NCBI GenBank assembly: GCA_902587515.1
Contig: CACILM010000003.1
Location: 1 to 64,000, forward strand
DNA: 64,000 bases
Reading direction: 5' to 3'
Source: an uncultured Pelagibacteraceae bacterium
GTDB lineage: Bacteria > Pseudomonadota > Alphaproteobacteria > Pelagibacterales > Pelagibacteraceae
In this document: piece by piece, positions 6,901 through 36,812 of the stretch
Numbering within the stretch: the stretch's first letter is position 1
How the letters are laid out: each line of letters starts with the position of its first letter
Made by a program: the position numbers and the translations under genes
Notes under the pieces: generated by a model
Databases searched by the model: none
Seen by the model: the letters and a program-made list of their open reading frames with translations, nothing else
Told to the model about the DNA's origin: nothing

Positions 6901-7827
6901 TTAAGCGTTAACAGCAATTCTTGTTGATGGAATAAACTTAATTTTTTCTGAAATAACCGATTCTTTGACTTCAACATGTTCAAACGCTGATTTTATATTC
7001 AACAATTTTCTTAGAAATTTATTAGTTAATTCATGGCCACCTTGATAACATTTTACATTTCCAAGAATTCTATGTCCTGATAATAAAAAGTCTCCAGCTA
7101 AATCTAAAATTTTATGATTTACAAATTCTTTTTCATTTCTTAAACCACCTTTGTTTAAAATTTTGTCCTGATCTACTACTAAGGCATTTTCTAAGGATCC
7201 GCCTTTAGCTAAACCAAGTTTTCTTATTTTCTCTATATCTTCAAATAAACAAAATGTTCTTGAGCATATAACTTTGTCTAAATCATCATTTTGGAAATTT
7301 ATTTTATTTTTTTGTTTACCTATAATTTTATTTTTATAATTTAGATTAAAATGTACATCTAAAGAGGAATTCCCTTTTTCAATAGAGATTTTTCTTTCAT
7401 CATCAACTAATTCAATTTTTCTTAAAATTCTCAGATACTTCCTTTTATTAGATAGCTCTTTTAAGTTTTGTTTTTTTATCTCTTTTATAAAAATGATTGC
7501 TGAACCGTCCAATATAGGAACTTCCTCGTTATCTATATGTATTATTGCGTTGTCTATTCCGGAAATATATAAAGCAGCTAATAAATGTTCAACTGTTGAA
7601 ACTTTTGCTCCAAATTGATTTTCTAGTGTTGTACAAAGTTTAGCTGAGGAGACGTTTCTATAATCTGCCTTAATCGTATTATTTTTATTCAAATCTATTC
7701 TTTTGAAAACAATACCTTGATCGGCTTCTGCAGGTAAAATTTTGATTGAAGATATTTTTCCAGTATGAAGACCGTTGCCTCTAATTTCAATTGGTTTAGA
7801 AAGAGTTTTTTGATATTTTTCAAGCAT
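6901..7827 (-). CDS. lpxC: UDP-3-O-acyl-N-acetylglucosamine deacetylase
   Basis: TVEHLLAAL, NEEVPILDGSA, FVNHKILDLAGDF.L.GH. Confidence 0.97.
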   Translation of the reverse strand: MLEKYQKTLSKPIEIRGNGLHTGKISSIKILPAEADQGIVFKRIDLNKNNTIKADYRNVSSAKLCTTLENQFGAKVSTVEHLLAALYISGIDNAIIHIDNEEVPILDGSAIIFIKEIKKQNLKELSNKRKYLRILRKIELVDDERKISIEKGNSSLDVHFNLNYKNKIIGKQKNKINFQNDDLDKVICSRTFCLFEDIEKIRKLGLAKGGSLENALVVDQDKILNKGGLRNEKEFVNHKILDLAGDFLLSGHRILGNVKCYQGGHELTNKFLRKLLNIKSAFEHVEVKESVISEKIKFIPSTRIAVNA

Positions 7828-7891: not shown

Positions 7892-9085
7892 TTAGTTAAA
7901 TAATAGGTCAAAAAAACGAGAAATAAGTGATTTTTTTTCTTGAACAATCGGTACAGCCTCTTTTTTCCACCCATATTGAACTAAATTTAAAGCATCTTCA
8001 TAAATTTCTTCATCAGTGAAGTTTTTCATAAAATTCAAATCATATTCATTATGATTAGAAAAAGTATTTTTATAAATATTTTTGAAACATTTTTGATTTG
8101 GCTCATCATTAATTTTTAAAAAAATTTTGAGATTTCTTTTAAGAAAACTTTTTAAATTGATATTTTTATTGATAGCTATTTCTGCAATTTCTTGGATTCT
8201 AGCGCTTGCTATATCACAAACTAATTGTTTTTTAATTTTTCTAAAGGTCTGTTTATCAAATAATTCCTCTTCGATAAAATTATTCATATCCTCTTTTGAA
8301 AAGCTTGAGTTATTTAAGATGTTTCTTACAGTCTGATTTTTTAAAGCTATAACTTTTGAAATATCATTTATAATTAAATTTGTTCCAAAATCAAATTTTT
8401 GAAAATACCTAAAAGCTGAGTTTTCAAAAAAATTTATATTTATGTTGTTATCGCTAATTTCTATATTTAAAAATGTTTCTAAGTTTGTATTTTCATTAAT
8501 TATCTTAGTTCCTAAAATAAAATTTTTTGAAATAATTTTTTTGATTCTTAAATTACATTTATCAAATATGTACTTTAAATTTTTATGATCATTATTATTA
8601 ATTAAAAAAAAAGATAACTCATGTGAATAGAAATTTCCAAATAATCCAATTGGTAGATTGCTAATTTTTTTCTTATCTAACAAATAATTTGAATTAAAAA
8701 TATGTAGGATTTTTTTTTCTTCTTCGGTTTCTAGTAATTTTGATTTCAGGTCATTTAAAATATAAGTAACATTATCTTTTGCTAATTGTGAACCATTCAA
8801 TTTTTTAAATCCAGTAAAATTGATCAATGAACAATTAAAATTATCAATTACTAGAATTAACTCTTTAAATGTATAATTTATTTTTTGCTCAATGAGATAT
8901 ATATTTTCACTAATTATCTTTGAAACTAAATTTAAATCACATACTCTTTGATTGCTTATTCCTTGCAGCGGAACTTTTTTGTGATTAATTATAGTAAAAT
9001 TGTTATGATCATTTGTTCGACCAGCTATAAAGATATAATTAAAATCGTTGATTTCGATTAAAAGAATTGGAGAATTGTTTTCCAT
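7892..9085 (-). CDS. ftsA: FtsA-like cell division protein, highly divergent
   Basis: Position after ftsQ; weak FtsA-like segment LPIGLFGNFYSHELSFFL...NLKYIFDKCNL; C-terminal amphipathic tail KSLISRFFDLLFN; canonical actin-fold nucleotide motifs not recognisable. Confidence 0.7.
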   Translation of the reverse strand: MENNSPILLIEINDFNYIFIAGRTNDHNNFTIINHKKVPLQGISNQRVCDLNLVSKIISENIYLIEQKINYTFKELILVIDNFNCSLINFTGFKKLNGSQLAKDNVTYILNDLKSKLLETEEEKKILHIFNSNYLLDKKKISNLPIGLFGNFYSHELSFFLINNNDHKNLKYIFDKCNLRIKKIISKNFILGTKIINENTNLETFLNIEISDNNININFFENSAFRYFQKFDFGTNLIINDISKVIALKNQTVRNILNNSSFSKEDMNNFIEEELFDKQTFRKIKKQLVCDIASARIQEIAEIAINKNINLKSFLKRNLKIFLKINDEPNQKCFKNIYKNTFSNHNEYDLNFMKNFTDEEIYEDALNLVQYGWKKEAVPIVQEKKSLISRFFDLLFN

Positions 9086-9088
9086 TTT

Positions 9089-9748
9089 TTATTTTAAAAT
9101 AAGTTGATCTTTAATTCTATAATCAAAAATTTTATATTTAGTAAAATTATCTTGATCTTTTAAATCCATAAAGTTTTTGAGACTTTTAACGTAATTATTT
9201 GTTGGTAACTTTATAAGTTGGTTATCTTGAGTTAGTAAGTCCCACCTTTTAGTCTCAAATAAATAAAATTTTTGTATGTTATCTAATGGAAAGTTGATTT
9301 CCTTTAAATTTTCATAAATAATTAAAAAACTTTTTTTATCGCCAAAAACAAAGGGTAATTCTTCAAACTTTCTAAGATCAATAAAATCAATTAAATCGCC
9401 TTGAGTGCTAAAGTATTTTTTTTCCTTATTATGTTGAATTATTGCTATTGGTTTTTTTTCGGCTATTTTAATAATTATTTTATTTGGATAAACTTTTTTA
9501 ATTTGGAAACTATCAATAAATTGAATTTCTTTAAGTTTTTTTTCTATTTTTTTTTTATCTAATAAGAATATATTTGATTGTTTTAAAAAAGATAATTTAT
9601 TATTTATATTTTCTTCTTTTATGATTTTATTGTTTTCTATTGCAATTTCTTGAATATAAAATTTTGAAAAAAAATTACTGTTGAATTGAATATTATAAGT
9701 ACTAAACAAAATTAGTAATAGTAAAGCGATTAAAAATCGTTTTTTCAT
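9089..9748 (-). CDS. ftsQ: Cell division protein FtsQ (POTRA domain)
   Basis: Single N-terminal TM, POTRA-like IKKVYPNKIIIKIAEKKPIAIIQ; between ddl and ftsA. Confidence 0.88.
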   Translation of the reverse strand: MKKRFLIALLLLILFSTYNIQFNSNFFSKFYIQEIAIENNKIIKEENINNKLSFLKQSNIFLLDKKKIEKKLKEIQFIDSFQIKKVYPNKIIIKIAEKKPIAIIQHNKEKKYFSTQGDLIDFIDLRKFEELPFVFGDKKSFLIIYENLKEINFPLDNIQKFYLFETKRWDLLTQDNQLIKLPTNNYVKSLKNFMDLKDQDNFTKYKIFDYRIKDQLILK

Positions 9749-17535: not shown

Positions 17536-20298
17536 TTAATAGCCTTTTATAATTTTTTTACTCAAATTATTTAAACCAGTTGCGTTAGAGCCTTTAATCA
17601 TTAGATAATCATTATTAGCTAAAATGTTTTTTAAAGTAAAATCTACATCTGACTCTTGTTGTAAGATATTTCCTCGCTTATTTTTATTTATATTCTTATA
17701 AGTATTAAGAGTTTTGATGCCTTTAATAAACACTTTGTCTATATCTGAATTGTTAATAACTTTTGATATACTTTTATGCAATTCAACTGATTTATGACCT
17801 AACTCTAGCATGTCCCCAAGTAACAAATACTTTTTAAAATTTTCTTTTTTTATAGAATTAAAATTTAGGATTGCATTTTTTACAGAAAGTGGATTAGCAT
17901 TATAACTTTCATCAATAAAATTGAATTTTTTTTTATATCTGTAAATTTTGTGTATTTTTCCCCGACCCTCAGTTGGCTCAATGTTTTTATAGAAATTAAG
18001 AATTTGAGAAAATTCTAGATTTAATACTTTCAATAAGGCTAATGAAGATAGAACATTGTAATAATTAATGTTTTTAATTGTTATTTTGAAGGTTTGATTA
18101 ATAATTTTGATAGTTAAAACTTTATTTTTTTTCTTAGTAATAACCTTTTTTAAGCAAACATCTGAATTTTTGTTAACTCCAAAAGTTACAACTTTAAGAT
18201 TTTTATTCTTTGCTTTTTTTTCTAAATAATTAAAAAATTTATCATCTCTATTTAAAATTATTGTACCATTTTTTTGAATGTTTTTTATTATTTCACTTTT
18301 TGCGTCTGCAATTCCCATTACATTTTTAAAATTTTCAATATGAGCTTCACCAATATTCGTAATAACTCCAATGTGTGGTCTTATTAATTTTGTCAAATCA
18401 TCTATCTCCCCTTTTTTACTCATTCCAACTTCAAAAACTCCAAACCTATGATTTGTTTTCAGTTGAGAGAGACTAATTGGTACACCGTATTCATTGTTGT
18501 ATGATTTAGGGGAACAATAGGTACTACCAAATTTTTGTAATAAATCTTTAATTAAATTTTTTAAAGATGTCTTTCCTGCACTTCCAGTAATTGCAATTAT
18601 TTTAGCTGTTGTTTTATCTCTTTTTAGAGAGGCAAATCTTTTAAGAAATTTTATCTCATTTTTTGTTTTTAGAACTTTTTTTCTATTATTATTAATCTGT
18701 TTTGAGGATATTATATATTTAGCCCCTCTTTTAAATGCTTCTTGAATAAATTTGACACCATCATTATTTTTTCCTTTTAATGTTAAAAAAATATTACCTT
18801 TATTTACTTCTCTAGAGTCTATGGCTAAACCGTGGAAATTGCCAACTTTTGTATTTGTTAAAATACTTTCTAAAATTTTTTTGTTTTGTAAAAAAGTAAA
18901 ATTTATATTTGATAGTTTTTTTGTTTTTATTTTGAGTTTTTTTATTATTTGGCTATCTGAGATAGAAATAATTTTATTTTTATAAATTTGTTCTTTTTCA
19001 TGACCTTTTCCTGCTACAAGTATGATTTCGCCAGGTTCTGCTTTCATGATTGCTGTTTTAATAGCTTGAGTTCTATTTCCAATATTAAAGTAATTTGTAA
19101 ATTTGATATTTTTTATTATTTCATTTCTGATTTTTTTGGGATCTTCATTTCTTGGATTGTCATCAGTTACGTATATTTTTTTGCAGTTGATACTAGCTAT
19201 CTTAGCCATGATTGGTCTTTTTTTAAGATCTCTATCTCCTCCACACCCAAATACTAAAGTTATCTCTCTACCATGATAATTTTTCAAAGATTTAATAGCT
19301 TTCTCTAAAGCATCTGGAGTATGTGCAAAATCTACGTATGCTTTTACCTTGTTTGAAAACGTTCGAATTAGTTCTAATCTTCCATTTACATCCTTTATTT
19401 TTTTTAATGAACTAAAAATTTTATTTTCTCTGAGCCCATTTAATTTTGCTGCTTCTATTGCCATTGAAAGATTTTTTAATTGGAATTCATTTAGATTAAG
19501 TTGAGCATTCTTTTTTAATTTTGCTGCTATTCTATCGCTGTCTATTAATTTAAGCTTTCTTTTTTTTGAAATTTTTTTTAACAAGGGAAATTCTTTTATA
19601 TTTCTTTCACAAATCATTACCTTTCTTTTTTTAATTACATTTCTAAACAAATGTAATTTGGCATTAAGATATTTAGCCATCGTTTTATGATAATCTAAGT
19701 GGTCTTGGCTAAAATTTGTAAATATGCCAGCTTTAAAGTCAAGGTGATCCAGTCTTCTTTGATGCAATCCATGACTTGAAGTTTCAACAATTACATTATT
19801 AATATTATTTTTTTTTATCTTTTGGAGTGATCTGTGAAGATTAAGCGTGTCAGGTGTTGTGAGATCTGACTTATCTACTTTTTTTTTATATTTTATACCT
19901 AAAGTACCAATTGATGCTGCAGGTATTTTATTGAGATTTAAAATCTGAAAATATAAATCTGCCACTGAAGTTTTCCCATTTGTTCCTGTTACAGCTATTA
20001 AATTTTTTGGCTTTAATTTATAGAATTTTGATGCAATCTCACTAAGGAGGTATCTTACATTTTTGGTCTTAATAACAACTAAATTTTTATTTTTATAATT
20101 ACAGTTTTTTGAGCAAATGACTACTTTTGCTCCATTTTTTACTGATTCAGAAATATATTTCTCTCCATTAATTTTTTGTCCTTTTATAGCAAAAAAAATG
20201 AAACCTTTTTTTACATTTTTACTATTTATTTCTAAACCCTTTATATCGATATTTTTTTTTTCTTTAGGGAGATTGTTAATTAATTGTTTCAGCAACAT
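17536..20298 (-). CDS. murE-murF: Bifunctional MurE-MurF fusion (UDP-MurNAc-tripeptide synthetase / D-Ala-D-Ala-adding enzyme)
   Basis: One 920-aa ORF. N-half MurE: AVTGTNGKTS, DNPRNEDP (meso-DAP motif), VAGKGHE. C-half MurF: LAIDSREVNKGNIFLTLKG, ITGSAGKTS, FEVGMSKKGEI, DESYNANPLSV, LLGDMLELG. Confidence 0.93.
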   Translation of the reverse strand: MLLKQLINNLPKEKKNIDIKGLEINSKNVKKGFIFFAIKGQKINGEKYISESVKNGAKVVICSKNCNYKNKNLVVIKTKNVRYLLSEIASKFYKLKPKNLIAVTGTNGKTSVADLYFQILNLNKIPAASIGTLGIKYKKKVDKSDLTTPDTLNLHRSLQKIKKNNINNVIVETSSHGLHQRRLDHLDFKAGIFTNFSQDHLDYHKTMAKYLNAKLHLFRNVIKKRKVMICERNIKEFPLLKKISKKRKLKLIDSDRIAAKLKKNAQLNLNEFQLKNLSMAIEAAKLNGLRENKIFSSLKKIKDVNGRLELIRTFSNKVKAYVDFAHTPDALEKAIKSLKNYHGREITLVFGCGGDRDLKKRPIMAKIASINCKKIYVTDDNPRNEDPKKIRNEIIKNIKFTNYFNIGNRTQAIKTAIMKAEPGEIILVAGKGHEKEQIYKNKIISISDSQIIKKLKIKTKKLSNINFTFLQNKKILESILTNTKVGNFHGLAIDSREVNKGNIFLTLKGKNNDGVKFIQEAFKRGAKYIISSKQINNNRKKVLKTKNEIKFLKRFASLKRDKTTAKIIAITGSAGKTSLKNLIKDLLQKFGSTYCSPKSYNNEYGVPISLSQLKTNHRFGVFEVGMSKKGEIDDLTKLIRPHIGVITNIGEAHIENFKNVMGIADAKSEIIKNIQKNGTIILNRDDKFFNYLEKKAKNKNLKVVTFGVNKNSDVCLKKVITKKKNKVLTIKIINQTFKITIKNINYYNVLSSLALLKVLNLEFSQILNFYKNIEPTEGRGKIHKIYRYKKKFNFIDESYNANPLSVKNAILNFNSIKKENFKKYLLLGDMLELGHKSVELHKSISKVINNSDIDKVFIKGIKTLNTYKNINKNKRGNILQQESDVDFTLKNILANNDYLMIKGSNATGLNNLSKKIIKGY

Positions 20299-23334: not shown

Positions 23335-24852
23335 TTAAAATTTTTGTCTTCTTAAAAATGCAGGTATTTCAAAATCCTCATCCTCATTTACATCCTGATC
23401 AAAAAGCTCACTCATATTTTGGTTTTCTGATAATTTTTTTTGTTCAGAATTTTCTTGGTTATTTTCCTCTGAAAATAGCTTTGGAGTATACTCGTCTTCA
23501 ATCTCCTCTTTTTTTAATTCATTTGTGTCTTGAGAAAATGTTTCTGCAACATTGATATTGTCATTTTTTTCAATGTAGGAAGCGCTTTCAATTGAAACTC
23601 CTGAGGGAATTTCATCATACAGGTTTTTTTGCTCTATTCGATCGTTCGATATTTTATTTTCCTCATTGTTTTCAAAATCATCAATAAGAGTATTTTGTTC
23701 CTCACTGCTCTTTATTTCATAATTTTCGTCAAGTTTTAAAGCTGTTGCACCATCTATAGAATTAACGATATTTTTATCTATATGATGACTGTTGCTGAAT
23801 AAATTATCTCCATGATTAAAACTTTTATTAATGGAAGATGTGTTTCTATGATTATTATCAACTAAGTTCAAATATGGTTTAGTTTCAGAACCATGCAGAG
23901 CAGTTGCAACGATGGATACCCTAATTTTTCCATTCATATTTTCATCCTTGATTGCTCCAAAAATCAATTCTGCCTCAGGATCAACCTCAGCCCTAATTTT
24001 GTTTACTGCAGCGTCTACTTCAAAAAGTTTTATATCACTTCCTCCAGTAATATTTACTAGTAGTCCTTTTGCACCTTGTAAAGTATATTCATCAATTAAT
24101 GGATTGTTCAAAGCCAGCTCTGTTGCAGCCATCGCTCTATTTTCTCCTTCAGCTTCACCTGTACCCATCATTGCTTTTCCACTTGAATTCATAACAGTTT
24201 CAACATCTGCAAAATCTAAATTTATCATGCCTGGTCTAACCATTAGGTCTGTGATGCTTTGAACGCCATGTTTTAATACATCATTAGACAAACTAAAAGA
24301 CTCCTCAAATCCAGTTGTCTCATTAGCTATTTTAAACAGATTTTGATTTGGAACCACAATAGTAGTATCTAAATGTTTTCTTAATTCCTCTAAACCCACT
24401 ATAGCTCTTCGCATTCTCTTAGGTCCTTCATAAGCAAACGGTAATGTTGTTACACCAACAGTTAAAATGTTCATCTCTCTTGCAGCTTTTGCTATTACAT
24501 GTGAAGCACCAGTTCCAGTACCTCCTCCCATGCCAGAAGCTATAAAAACCATATTGCTACCTTGAATATAATTTACTATTTCATTTATCGACTCATCAGC
24601 TGCTGCTTGACCAATATCATGCTTTGCACCAGCTCCTAATCCTTTAGTTAAATTCATGCCAATTTGTATTTTTGCATCTGCTTTACTCATTTTTAAGTCT
24701 TGAGCATCAGTATTCACAGCAACAAATTCTACTCCTTGCATACCTGAGTCTATCATTGCATTTATTGCATTTCCGCCAGCTCCACCTACTCCAATAACAA
24801 GTATTCTAGGTTTTAATTCTCTTAACTCTCCACCTCCAACATTTATTGTCAT
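23335..24852 (-). CDS. ftsZ: Tubulin-like cell division GTPase FtsZ
   Basis: GGAGGNAINAM, GMGGGTGTGA tubulin signature, C-terminal peptide DFEIPAFLRRQ. ORF track starts at 24879 but the ATG at 24852 (MTINVGG...) gives an ATGA overlap with the mraZ stop. Confidence 0.97.
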   Translation of the reverse strand: MTINVGGGELRELKPRILVIGVGGAGGNAINAMIDSGMQGVEFVAVNTDAQDLKMSKADAKIQIGMNLTKGLGAGAKHDIGQAAADESINEIVNYIQGSNMVFIASGMGGGTGTGASHVIAKAAREMNILTVGVTTLPFAYEGPKRMRRAIVGLEELRKHLDTTIVVPNQNLFKIANETTGFEESFSLSNDVLKHGVQSITDLMVRPGMINLDFADVETVMNSSGKAMMGTGEAEGENRAMAATELALNNPLIDEYTLQGAKGLLVNITGGSDIKLFEVDAAVNKIRAEVDPEAELIFGAIKDENMNGKIRVSIVATALHGSETKPYLNLVDNNHRNTSSINKSFNHGDNLFSNSHHIDKNIVNSIDGATALKLDENYEIKSSEEQNTLIDDFENNEENKISNDRIEQKNLYDEIPSGVSIESASYIEKNDNINVAETFSQDTNELKKEEIEDEYTPKLFSEENNQENSEQKKLSENQNMSELFDQDVNEDEDFEIPAFLRRQKF

Positions 24853-25310
24853 GCTTCTCCTTTTTGTTTGTTGTCCCATTTTAAATTTGATCTATTTTGA
24901 TAAGCTTTTTTTCTTGCAAGAGTTTTAAATTTTTCAAAATTTTTAGGCTCCCAAATTTGAAATGTCTTGCCTAATCCAACGAATAAAACGTTATTTTTAA
25001 TTTGTGCATGATTTAGTAATTTACTTGATAATGAAATTCTTCCTTCTGTATCAAATTGCACGTTTTCACTTTCAGATAAAATAGAAGTTGCAAAATAATC
25101 TCTTTTTTCTTCAAAAGGATTTAAAGAGTCAATGCTGTTTGAAATTTTTTCGATTCTATCTTGAGAACAAGCCTCTAGTGCTAAATGATTAAAAGATGGA
25201 TAGCTTATAAAACCATTATACCCCATAGAGCTTAGGTGTGATCTAAAACTAGCCGGCACTGAAACCCGACCTTTCTTGTCTATTTTGTTCTCGTAATTCG
25301 ATAAAAACAT
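24849..25310 (-). CDS. mraZ: Transcriptional regulator MraZ
   Basis: FLSNYENKIDKKGRVSVPASFR (SpoVT/AbrB-like), second repeat FDTEGRISLSSKLL. Confidence 0.95.
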   Translation of the reverse strand: MFLSNYENKIDKKGRVSVPASFRSHLSSMGYNGFISYPSFNHLALEACSQDRIEKISNSIDSLNPFEEKRDYFATSILSESENVQFDTEGRISLSSKLLNHAQIKNNVLFVGLGKTFQIWEPKNFEKFKTLARKKAYQNRSNLKWDNKQKGEA

Positions 25311-32401: not shown

Positions 32402-33610
32402 TTGTATTTGAAGAAGATTGGTCAAAATATAAACTCAACAAAAAATCTTAAAAAGATCAATTCCACAGCTATTCTAGTTCTTGAAAACGGTAAATTCTTT
32501 AAAGGCGTAGGTTTAGGTTACAAAGGCACCGCAACTGGTGAAGTATGTTTTAATACTTCTATTACTGGTTACCAAGAAATTATATCTGACCCCTCCTATG
32601 CTGATCAGATTATAAATTTTACCTTTCCGCATGTTGGAAATGTTGGAACTAATAAAGAAGATCACGAGTCAGATAAGATTTGGACTAAAGGAGTAATAAT
32701 AAATACAGAGATAACTAATCCATCAAATTACAGATCTTTAAAACATTTAGATCAATGGTTAAAAAAAAATAAGATTGTTGGAATAACTGGAATTGATACT
32801 AGAAATTTAACAAATTTAATAAGAGATAAAGGTGCTCCTAAGGGGACAATATCTTTTTATAACAAAAATAAATTAAATATAAAAAAACTAATTAAAATAA
32901 CTAATAAATGGAGCGGCCTTAAAAACTTAGATTTGGCAAAAATGGTTACTACTAAGAAAAATTATTTGTGGCAAGATTATAAAACGTGGGAAAAGGGAAA
33001 TGGATATTTAAAAAATAAGAAAAAAATATTGCATGTTGTAGCCATAGATTACGGAATTAAGAAAAATATTTTAAGATATTTTTCAGATTTTAATTGTAAA
33101 GTTACAATCGTACCATGCAAAACAGCTGCAAAAGATATTCTAAAACTCAAACCTAGTGGAATATTTTTATCAAATGGACCCGGAGATCCTGCGGCGACAG
33201 GGAAATATGCAATACCAACAATCCAAGAATTAATAAAAAAAAAGTTACCATTATTTGGAATCTGTTTGGGCCATCAAATCCTAGCTTTAGCACTCGGTGC
33301 TAAGACAGAAAAAATGAAATTAGGGCATAGAGGAGCTAACCATCCTGTTAAAAATTTGATTGAGGGAAATGTTGAAATTACAAGTCAGAATCATGGATTT
33401 GAAGTAGTAAAAAAAGGTATGCCTAAAAATATAAGAGTCACTCACCAGTCTTTATTTGACAACAGCATTGAAGGTATCGAGCTAAAAAATAAACCTGTTT
33501 TCTCAGTTCAATATCATCCAGAGTCTAACCCTGGTCCTCAAGATAGTGTTTATTTATTTGATAAATTTGTAAAGAGTATGAAAAAAAATGCCAAAAAGAA
33601 AAGATATTAA
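32402..33610 (+). CDS. carA: Carbamoyl-phosphate synthase small subunit
   Basis: [48 protein letters not shown]. Start is a TTG in the ORF track; exact start uncertain. Confidence 0.96.
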
Positions 33611-36600
33611 AAAAATTTTAGTTGTAGGTGCGGGGCCAATTATTATTGGGCAAGCTTGTGAATTTGATTATTCAGGAACTCAAGCCTGTAAAGCTTTAAA
33701 AGATGAAGGTTTCAAAGTAATTCTCATAAATTCAAATCCAGCAACAATCATGACAGATCCAAACATCGCTGATAAAACTTATATTGAGCCAATTACAATA
33801 GAAGTTCTTGAAAAAATTCTAAAAAAAGAAAAACCTGATGCAATCTTGCCAACCATGGGTGGTCAAACCGCGTTGAATTTAGCAATGGAGGCAGAAAAAA
33901 AAGGTATTCTTAAAAAATATAAAATTGAACTTATAGGCGCTAATTCAAAAGCTATATCCAATGCAGAAGATAGAAAAAAGTTCAGAAAAAATATGATAGA
34001 GATTGGTTTAGATCTTCCCAAATCAAAAATAGTAAACAATTTTAAACAATCTTCAAAAGCATATAAACAAATCGGATTACCAGCAATTATAAGACCGGCT
34101 TTTACTCTAGGTGGTTTGGGAGGTGGTATAGCAAAAAATAAAAAAGATTTTTTTAAGATAATAAAAAATGGGCTTCACGAGTCACCTGTAAATCAAGTCT
34201 TAGTTGAGGAGTGTTTAGAGGGTTGGAAAGAATTTGAGATGGAAGTTGTCAGAGATAAAAATGACAATTGTATTATTATTTGCTCAATAGAAAATTTAGA
34301 TCCCATGGGAATACATACTGGGGACTCTGTTACTATTGCTCCAGCATTAACTTTGACCGACAAAGAGTATCAAGTAATGAGAAATGCCTCTATAGCTTGC
34401 CTGAGAAAAATTGGTGTGGAAACAGGAGGGTCAAATGTTCAATTCGCAATAAATCCAAAAAATGGAAGAATGGTAATCATTGAGATGAACCCTAGGGTTT
34501 CAAGATCATCAGCGCTAGCTTCTAAGGCCACTGGGTTTCCAATAGCAAAGGTAGCGGCAAAGTTAGCTGTTGGTTACACTTTAGACGAATTAAAAAATGA
34601 AATTACGAAAGTTACACCTGCATCTTTTGAGCCCACAATAGACTATGTGGTCACTAAAATCCCAAGATTTACTTTTGAAAAATTCTCCTCCTCAGCTGCA
34701 GTTTTAGGAACATCAATGAAATCGGTGGGGGAAGCAATGGCTATTGGTAGAAATTTTAAAGAGTCTCTTCAAAAAGCTTTGGTTTCTCTAGAGACAGGTT
34801 TCTCAGGATTAGACCAAATATTTTATCTAAACACGAAACAAATTAGAAAAAAACTAAAAGAAAATATTCCAAATAAGATTTTACTTGTTGGAGAGGCTAT
34901 AAGAAAAAAAATAAATTTAAAAGATATAAATAAACTTTCAAAAATTGACCCTTGGTTTTTAAATCAAATAAAAGAAATTATAGATAATGAGTTTAAAATA
35001 AAGAAAAAAGGTCTTCCTAAAAATTTCAATGAATTTAATTATATAAAGTCGATTGGGTTTTCTGACAAAAAATTATCTGAACTTACCAATACTTCAGAGT
35101 CTTTAATTAGAAAGAAAAGAACTGCTTTAAAAGTTTTACCAGTTTATAAAAAGGTCGATACTTGTGCTGCAGAATTTAAGTCTTTCACTCCGTATATGTA
35201 TTCTACTTATCAAAGAAATTTCTCTTATAATTCAGAATGTGAAGCCGATCCATCAAATAAAAATAAAATTATAATACTTGGAGGAGGCCCTAATAGAATA
35301 GGTCAAGGAATAGAATTTGATTATTGCTGTTGCCAAGCTAGTTTTGCTCTTAAAGAAGCTAAATATGAAACAATCATGATTAATTGTAATCCTGAAACTG
35401 TGTCAACAGATTACGATACAAGTGACAGACTTTATTTTGAACCTTTAATAGATGAATATGTTTTCAATATAATAAAGAGAGAAAAATCAAAAGGTAATGT
35501 AAAAGGTGTCATTACTCAATTTGGAGGACAAACTCCAATTAAACTGGCAAAATTTTTATATGAAAATCAGCTTCCAATTTTAGGAACTCAATATTCATCA
35601 ATCGATCTTGCTGAAGACAGAGATAGATTTAGGAGTCTTTTAAACAAACTTAATTTAAAACAAGCTGAAAGTGGTATCGCTAGAACTTTTCCTCAAGCAA
35701 TAAAAATTGCTGATAAAATTGGCTTGCCTCTCATAGTAAGGCCATCTTACGTTTTAGGTGGAAGAGCAATGGAGATTGTTCATGAAAAAAGGCAACTCAA
35801 AGACTTTGTAAGAGAAGCATTTAAAGTTGCTGAAAAAAATCCAATTTTGATTGATAAGTTTATTGATAATGCTATGGAGGTTGATGTTGACGCAATATCG
35901 GATGGTAAAAATGTTTTCGTAGCCGGTATTATGCAACACATTGAAGAGGCAGGAATACACTCAGGTGACTCAGCATGTAGTTTACCTCCGGTATCAATAA
36001 AACCTTTTTTAATTAAAGAAATTGAAAATCAAACAAAAAAATTAGCCTTAGCTCTTAAAGTTAAAGGTTTCATGAATGTTCAATATGCAATTAAAAAAGA
36101 TCAGATTTATGTGATAGAAGTTAATCCAAGAGCTAGTAGAACCGTTCCATTTGTTTCAAAGGCGAAAAATTTACCTCTTGCTAAAATAGCCTCTAGAGTG
36201 ATGGCAGGAGAAAAATTATCAAATTTCAGTTTAAAAAGTAAAACAAAAAATATGTTTGCAGTAAAAGAGGCGGTCTTTCCATTTAACAAATTTCCAAACA
36301 GCGATCTTTTACTTGGGCCAGAAATGAAATCAACAGGTGAAGTTATGGGTTTTGATAAAAATTTCGGGATGGCTTTTGCTAAAAGTCAAATTGCAGCCTC
36401 AAACTCTCTTCCTAAAAAAGGCTTAGCTTTTATCTCTTTAAAAAATAGTCATAAAGAAGAGGGGGTGCAATTAGCAAAACAATTAATTAAATTAAATTTC
36501 ACACTTTGTGGAACCGGAGGTACTGCCGATTATATTAGCAAACACGGGATTAAGTGCAAAAAAATTAATAAAGTAAATCAGGGATCTCCTCATATTGTTG

Positions 36601-36812
36601 ATATTCTAAATACTAAAAAAATCGCATTAGTAATTAATACAGGTGGCGGAAATAGTGAAGCTCAGTTGAGCGATGCGGTAGCTTTAAGAAGGGCTACGTT
36701 AGCTAACAAAGTTCCATATTGCACGAATATGTCGACAGCCAAGGTTTGTTTGGAGGGTATTAAATCTCTCAAATTGAAAGATATCAGCGTTACTTCTTTA
36801 CAAGATCTTTAA
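33588..36812 (+). CDS. carB: Carbamoyl-phosphate synthase large subunit
   Basis: Duplicated ATP-grasp halves: [71 protein letters not shown]-like C-terminus. Confidence 0.98.

Follow-up and report, generated by a model that had tools for sequence, protein, structure and literature searches.

A diverged SAR11 FtsA without ATP-site motifs, and its half-length relatives

Results

The gene between ftsQ and lpxC reads as a diverged FtsA

A protein of 397 aa is encoded between ftsQ and lpxC on the minus strand of the window, the 64,000-nucleotide stretch of DNA analysed here, which belongs to a 1.05 Mb assembly in 18 contigs. The first-pass annotation had proposed an FtsA-position protein at this place, and the reading frame and both flanking genes were located as it described. 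Translating the plus strand over these coordinates gives numerous stop codons. The ftsQ-ftsA-lpxC order also occurs in congeners. Named relatives found were 'Candidatus Pelagibacter ubique HIMB058' and two uncultured Pelagibacteraceae genomes. The genes of the locus are as follows.

6901–7827, minus strand: lpxC, named from its translation and the conserved order in congeners
7892–9085, minus strand: ftsA-position coding sequence, 397 aa, a nucleotide-motif-less FtsA (open reading frame list; TIGR01174; PDB FtsA 7q6d, E=1e-16 with the genus profile)
9089–9748, minus strand: ftsQ (PF08478 and PF03799)

The NCBIfam ftsA model TIGR01174 matched the 397-aa protein with E=1.3e-27 and 96.9 bits, short of the equivalog cut-off of 175.85 bits, and the Pfam SHS2_FTSA model (PF02491) matched residues 88–151 at the correct position with E=0.0015, below its curated cut-off. 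When a profile of 31 genus sequences was compared with solved structures, FtsA ranked first (hmmsearch against PDB FtsA, E=1e-16), and hhalign of the genus profile against an alphaproteobacterial FtsA profile gave a probability of 97% (E=2.8e-11, 374 columns). The profile matches to FtsA run from about residue 10 to 315, and in the profile alignment identity to alphaproteobacterial FtsA is ~15%. In a check for a second, intact ftsA in its own genome, TIGR01174 produced three matches (the 397-aa gene, MreB and one weaker third), and the sole match to the Pfam FtsA model PF14450 was MreB. Searches of viral contigs for further relatives found none.

Structure prediction followed by Foldseek had been suggested as a check. 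An AlphaFold model built from four input sequences reached a pLDDT of 50, with an unreliable 1C region, and the top 15 Foldseek hits obtained with this low-confidence model were all FtsA, at TM-scores of ~0.3. Because these values are low, no conclusion was built on model geometry. The family model, the hhalign comparison, the search against solved structures and Foldseek all point to an FtsA-like fold. Judged by its sequence, the 397-aa protein is a diverged FtsA by descent; because that descent is clear, though the motifs that define the ATPase were tested for and are missing, we class it as a variant of FtsA rather than a new family. Subdomain names (1A, 1C, 2A, 2B) were assigned via alignment to FtsA of known structure.

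The nucleotide motifs are missing throughout the genus

To place the former motifs, three alignments were used: MAFFT with 30 alphaproteobacterial FtsA, hhalign, and hmmsearch against PDB FtsA.

9020–9064, minus strand: former phosphate-1 loop LLIEINDFNYIFIAG, residues 8–22 (MAFFT, hhalign and hmmsearch alignments)
8435–8470, minus strand: former phosphate-2 loop LNIEISDNNINI, residues 206–217 (MAFFT, hhalign and hmmsearch alignments)
8096–8128, minus strand: former adenosine motif KIFLKINDEPN, residues 320–330, replacing LTGGxxxL (MAFFT and hhalign)

The two stretches quoted in the first-pass annotation as degenerate phosphate loops were recovered at these residues, and all three methods placed them alike, on phosphate-1 and phosphate-2. 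K320–N330, the adenosine stretch, was placed by MAFFT and hhalign, with KIFLKIND set against VVLTGGAS. Where 30 intact alphaproteobacterial FtsA read LDIGTTKV, IDMGGGTT and LTGGASQL, the corresponding stretches of the window protein are IEINDFNY, IEISDNNI and LKINDEPN, respectively.

In the phosphate-1 loop both the glycine and the Thr/Ser of DxGT/S are gone, and the glycine occurs in 3% of 36 genus sequences. E11 aligns with E. coli E14, and a glutamate is found at this position in 30 of 36 congeners, so the first phosphate-1 acid is not lost. In the phosphate-2 loop the DxGGGT motif is absent: E209 stands at the position of E. coli D210 and the GGG positions hold no glycine, while among the 36 genus sequences D occurs in 3%, the first G in 14% and the third G in 0%. 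Congeners mostly have K, E or Q at the acid position. The beta-hairpin pattern of this loop is retained. The paired glycine of the adenosine motif is replaced by KIND in the window, and GG was found in 0% of the 36 genus sequences.

The motif loss goes beyond chance, being common to every aligned congener, with MreB of the same genome retaining its motifs. Pocket residues at shifted positions were also considered and ruled out, none being found by the three alignment methods. Neither of the two outcomes that the first-pass annotation had named as refuting, intact pocket residues elsewhere or the lack of an FtsA-like fold, was thus encountered. The loss of phosphate-1 and phosphate-2 claimed beforehand thus held in three agreeing alignments and across the genus, with the glycines and the phosphate-2 Asp gone and E11 kept, and loss of the ATP site in the window FtsA is well supported at the level of sequence. 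Near-invariant reference columns outside the nucleotide motifs were also strongly eroded, indicating that the motif loss is one part of a very fast divergence and that 'retention' statistics alone fail to single out the nucleotide motifs.

The putative FtsZ-contact residues, 1C and the C-terminal tail are conserved

Three regions of the protein stood out for their conservation.

8189–8200, minus strand: R296-x-x-E299 in the 2B helix, aligned to E. coli R300/E303 (PDB alignment and genus conservation)
8609–8812, minus strand: 1C (SHS2) core, residues 92–159, GFKKLNGSQ...LPIGLFGNFYSHELSF (genus alignment; PF02491)
7895–7933, minus strand: C-terminal amphipathic tail KSLISRFFDLLFN, residues 385–397, a putative membrane-targeting helix (hydrophobic moment)

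Counting along the hmmsearch alignment to PDB FtsA, R296 and E299 correspond to E. coli R300 and E303, which we take to be residues that contact FtsZ, a role that Pichoff and Lutkenhaus in 2007 and Szwedziak in 2012 are said to have described. No long SAR11 FtsA in the alignments departs from either residue, and both are among the positions unchanged in 36/36 genus sequences, together with E66, H128, D137, P145, G234 and D241, among others. The listed 1C stretch is the best-conserved part of FtsA within the genus. The tail, which had been called amphipathic-looking, has a hydrophobic moment of 0.41 over its last 12 residues (shuffle p 0.01; genus median p 0.011) and is conserved in the genus.

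Canonical FtsA (E. coli 7Q6D, V. maritimus 7Q6F, T. maritima 1E4F/4A2A) and the window protein have in common ftsQ adjacency, length, the order 1A-1C-2A/2B, the residues equivalent to R300/E303, an amphipathic C-terminal helix and an FtsZ partner with a standard tail. Unlike canonical FtsA, the window protein lacks the phosphate-1, phosphate-2 and adenosine motifs. The cytoplasmic domain of GspL/EpsL and PilM also have FtsA-related folds, and in GspL a fold of this kind already occurs with no nucleotide site; GspL/EpsL belongs to type II secretion and PilM to type IV pili, with no dcw-cluster location and no FtsZ partner.

FtsZ keeps its C-terminal peptide at a distant locus

The partner gene lies elsewhere in the window.

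23335–24879, minus strand: ftsZ, between mraZ and rsmH (PF00091 and PF12327)
23344–23370, minus strand: FtsZ C-terminal peptide EIPAFLRRQ (translation)

The window FtsZ ends in EIPAFLRRQKF, bearing out the canonical FtsA-binding peptide read in the first pass. Below, g1 to g9, f1 and f2 are group codes, g1 standing for the window's genus and f2 for a second family of the order. Nearly every SAR11 genome read retains the FtsZ tail, with minor variation; the two f2 genomes that form the exception have ftsZ at a contig end. The separation of ftsZ from ftsA, noted at first in this cluster, proved to be order-wide rather than local: the mraZ-ftsZ-rsmH arrangement recurs in almost every SAR11 genome read, and in the two contig-end f2 genomes ftsZ lies beside mraZ. 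The relocation is therefore old and, since it is seen in f1 and, contig permitting, in f2, the parting of ftsZ and ftsA preceded the complete loss of the motifs. At 23335–25310 of the window, ftsZ overlaps the end of mraZ by ~31 bases.

Because its own tail is amphipathic, R296 and E299 are invariant and FtsZ has an intact tail, we infer that the protein acts as a membrane tether for FtsZ, as had been proposed; it would bind the membrane and would not bind ATP, and FtsZ binding is probably retained in the window's genus.

ATP-site erosion extends through the SAR11 order

The ftsA model had matches in 196/198 genomes of the order, some of the weaker ones being MreB, and only 8/198 were above the cut-off. 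Long FtsA of g5–g8 and f2 share the locus, the tail and the 2B residues with the window protein. These proteins are also eroded at phosphate-2 (DFGxxKTS, DIGFERTS and DIQKNKT, compared with DMGGGTTS), and they keep part of phosphate-1 (DIGS and DFGSSK; DIR in f2) and the adenosine G. In order of phosphate-1, phosphate-2 and adenosine, the motifs read DIRADK, IDIQKNKT and LTGYG in f2, DIGSYK-type, DFGxxKTS and GxGS in g5, g7 and g8, and DFGSSK, DIGFERTS and GGGSK in the long FtsA of g6. Unlike these other SAR11 proteins, the FtsA of g9 and of the window's genus have lost all three motifs and keep no remnant. As read from these motifs, ATP-site erosion is a trend through the whole SAR11 order. 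Outside SAR11, some alphaproteobacteria of other families that gave weak ftsA matches (L111, L113 and L114) have eroded phosphate motifs as well.

Many g6 genomes encode half of FtsA

In g6, the largest genus of the family in the genome collection, which judging from this size would be Pelagibacter proper, two complete genomes were found to have an open reading frame of 233–242 aa between ftsQ and lpxC. Searching with one short protein revealed intact open frames of 220–245 aa in about 80 g6 genomes; roughly twelve further copies were partial or frameshifted. The same query also matched long FtsA in other genomes, again across this N-terminal part. Examples at the ftsQ-lpxC position are the following.

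L178, 5950–6675, plus strand: half-FtsA
L179, 7560–8258, minus strand: half-FtsA
Further loci: L182–L211, L214 and L215

Compared with the long g6 form, the short form is missing one continuous block of ~155 aa that comprises the whole of 2A and 2B together with the adenosine strand; a protein of ~233 aa retains 1A, 1C and a tail, GFFEKFFxFF. A half-FtsA profile matched the profile of long g6 FtsA (99.8%, E=1.4e-27) and that of the window's genus (98.8%, E=1.2e-16), the ftsA model matched 16/23 short proteins (best 6.8e-9), and SHS2_FTSA matched 12/23. A profile of the missing block was found in 4/4 long-form control genomes. Searched against 10 short-form genomes, it found nothing in eight and gave marginal matches in the other two (E 0.003 and 0.01), to open reading frames outside the ftsA locus that are 238 and 695 aa long. 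The short genes have dN/dS values of 0.11–0.36, which places them under purifying selection. Half-FtsA and the window FtsA share the locus, homologous 1A and 1C, a similar tail and the absence of the phosphate-1 motif. Unlike the window FtsA, half-FtsA has 2A, 2B (including the FtsZ-contact helix) and the adenosine strand deleted.

Since half-FtsA is without 2B, there is no 2B contact with FtsZ in those genomes. Both of the complete genomes with half-FtsA that were read, G082 and G083, nonetheless keep the FtsZ tail, indicating that the tail alone is no proof of a 2B contact. The absence of domain 2 further indicates that this lineage can dispense with a complete ATP pocket. On a uvrB tree of g6, long and short FtsA were intermixed, with at least 4 changes between them; the mixture of forms may therefore reflect either repeated deletion or recombination and exchange of the cluster.

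In the complete genome G093 (L212, 760–1459) an apparent frameshift close to an A-rich run interrupts half-ftsA and may be a sequencing error or a real inactivation; a similar split was seen in L213 (G175).

Discussion

We consider it quite likely that the window protein works as a nucleotide-independent membrane adaptor with a dismantled ATP site, holding the FtsZ tail via 2B and connecting through 1C to the divisome. In this proposal a normal actin-fold FtsA would have had its nucleotide site dismantled, and the amphipathic C-terminal helix, inserted in the membrane, would fix the protein in the membrane-bound state. The 2B helix would grip the FtsZ tail EIPAFLRRQ with R296 and E299, and the conserved face of 1C would touch downstream divisome proteins. 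E. coli and S. pneumoniae FtsA have an ATP-driven switch that governs membrane release, polymerisation and lipid remodelling; here this switch would be missing, or assembly would instead be constitutive or driven by partners. The loss read from sequence may nonetheless be compatible with weak or unusual ligand binding, which counts against the proposal.

ATP has been treated as central to FtsA, as E. coli variants of the ATP site (E14R, S84L, A188V and D210A) abolish complementation and fail to support division, and E14R and S84L bound lipid with or without ATP (PMC10213515). The failure of these variants likewise counts against a nucleotide-independent FtsA. A review links the nucleotide to membrane binding and polymerisation of FtsA, reports that S. 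pneumoniae FtsA requires ATP binding for both membrane attachment and polymerisation, and notes that inactivating substitutions in E. coli FtsA fall mostly at the ATP site (PMC5832921). The 1C subdomain of E. coli FtsA is where FtsN acts (PMC7613929).

The emphasis could also lie on 1C, with FtsA serving mainly as a membrane-bound 1C scaffold that recruits the divisome and another protein anchoring FtsZ. This would fit the conservation of 1C within the genus, the survival of 1C and the tail in the ~233-aa half-FtsA, and the persistence of the FtsZ tail where 2B has been deleted. We regard it as unlikely for the window's genus, since all 36 genus sequences have R296 and E299 despite the general divergence, and since SepF (PF04472), an alternative FtsZ anchor, was found in 0/37 genus genomes and 0/13 of a mixed genome set.

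It is harder still to maintain that the protein is an ordinary though diverged ATP-binding FtsA with a pocket built from other residues. The fold is apparently kept, as the phosphate-2 beta-hairpin and the extent of the profile matches suggest, and E11 occupies the position of E. coli E14. However, none of the three loops has a glycine, K, E or Q usually stands in place of the phosphate-2 acid in congeners, and in some relatives 2A and the adenosine strand are missing altogether, making this reading highly improbable.

That the gene is non-functional and decaying in a shrinking genome is scarcely credible. Its rate of change might suggest so: the window FtsA is 51% identical to two congeners, compared with 56–91% for most genes of the cluster, FtsW being 73–80% and MraY 91% identical to the same congeners; comparable divergence was confined to ftsQ and, in one of the congeners, lpxC. 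However, when 49 genus genomes were searched, most had a match, and these were mostly open frames of 396–405 aa; the few fragments lay at contig ends, and genomes without a match were mostly incomplete. The dN/dS of ftsA in the closest genus pairs was 0.11–0.26, a value that shows purifying selection and with the open frames rules against a pseudogene, and the invariant residues and conserved tail likewise argue for a working gene. An equally implausible proposal, that AT-rich mutational pressure alone stripped the glycines and left function unchanged, draws on the AT-richness of SAR11 genomes and their proteins rich in I, K, N and F, but general AT-driven drift is insufficient as an explanation, because MreB of the same genome (L001), a separate gene with an actin-like fold and no 1C, keeps all its motifs (DLGTANT, DIGGGTTE and LTGGGAL), and the glycine loops kept in MreB and FtsZ indicate that such loops persist where they are selected for.

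With a nucleotide-independent adaptor as the preferred reading for the window's genus, we lean towards a broader one for the order, in which the adaptor of the SAR11 division ring would no longer be an actin. It would be a nucleotide-free FtsA, reduced in many g6 species to a half-fold without the FtsZ-contact subdomain, where the FtsZ tail would be held by a relocated site or another anchor; the window protein would represent a living intermediate that has lost the ATP site and kept the FtsZ contact. Very abundant ocean bacteria appear to divide with an FtsA that has no ATP site and, in many species, without half of the fold. These would be natural proteins with which to ask what ATP does in FtsA, whether division needs polymerisation and what a minimal FtsA is, and half-FtsA raises the question of what anchors FtsZ to the membrane once the known contact is gone. 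A full-text search limited to open-licence literature found no publication on SAR11 FtsA, which is no proof of novelty.

Three other genes in the window were of note. LpxC (6901–7827) is 49% identical to that of the congener G006 over 279 aa, unusually fast divergence. A single open reading frame of 920 aa at 17536–20298 contains two sets of Mur-ligase domains, a MurE-MurF fusion. At 33588–36812, carB of the window's genus is 80–88% identical to carB of g6 and its branch falls within g6 on the tree, against the expected placement, which points to gene transfer; carB was therefore rejected as a species marker. One g9 genome has a carB placement like that of the window's genus, within g6.
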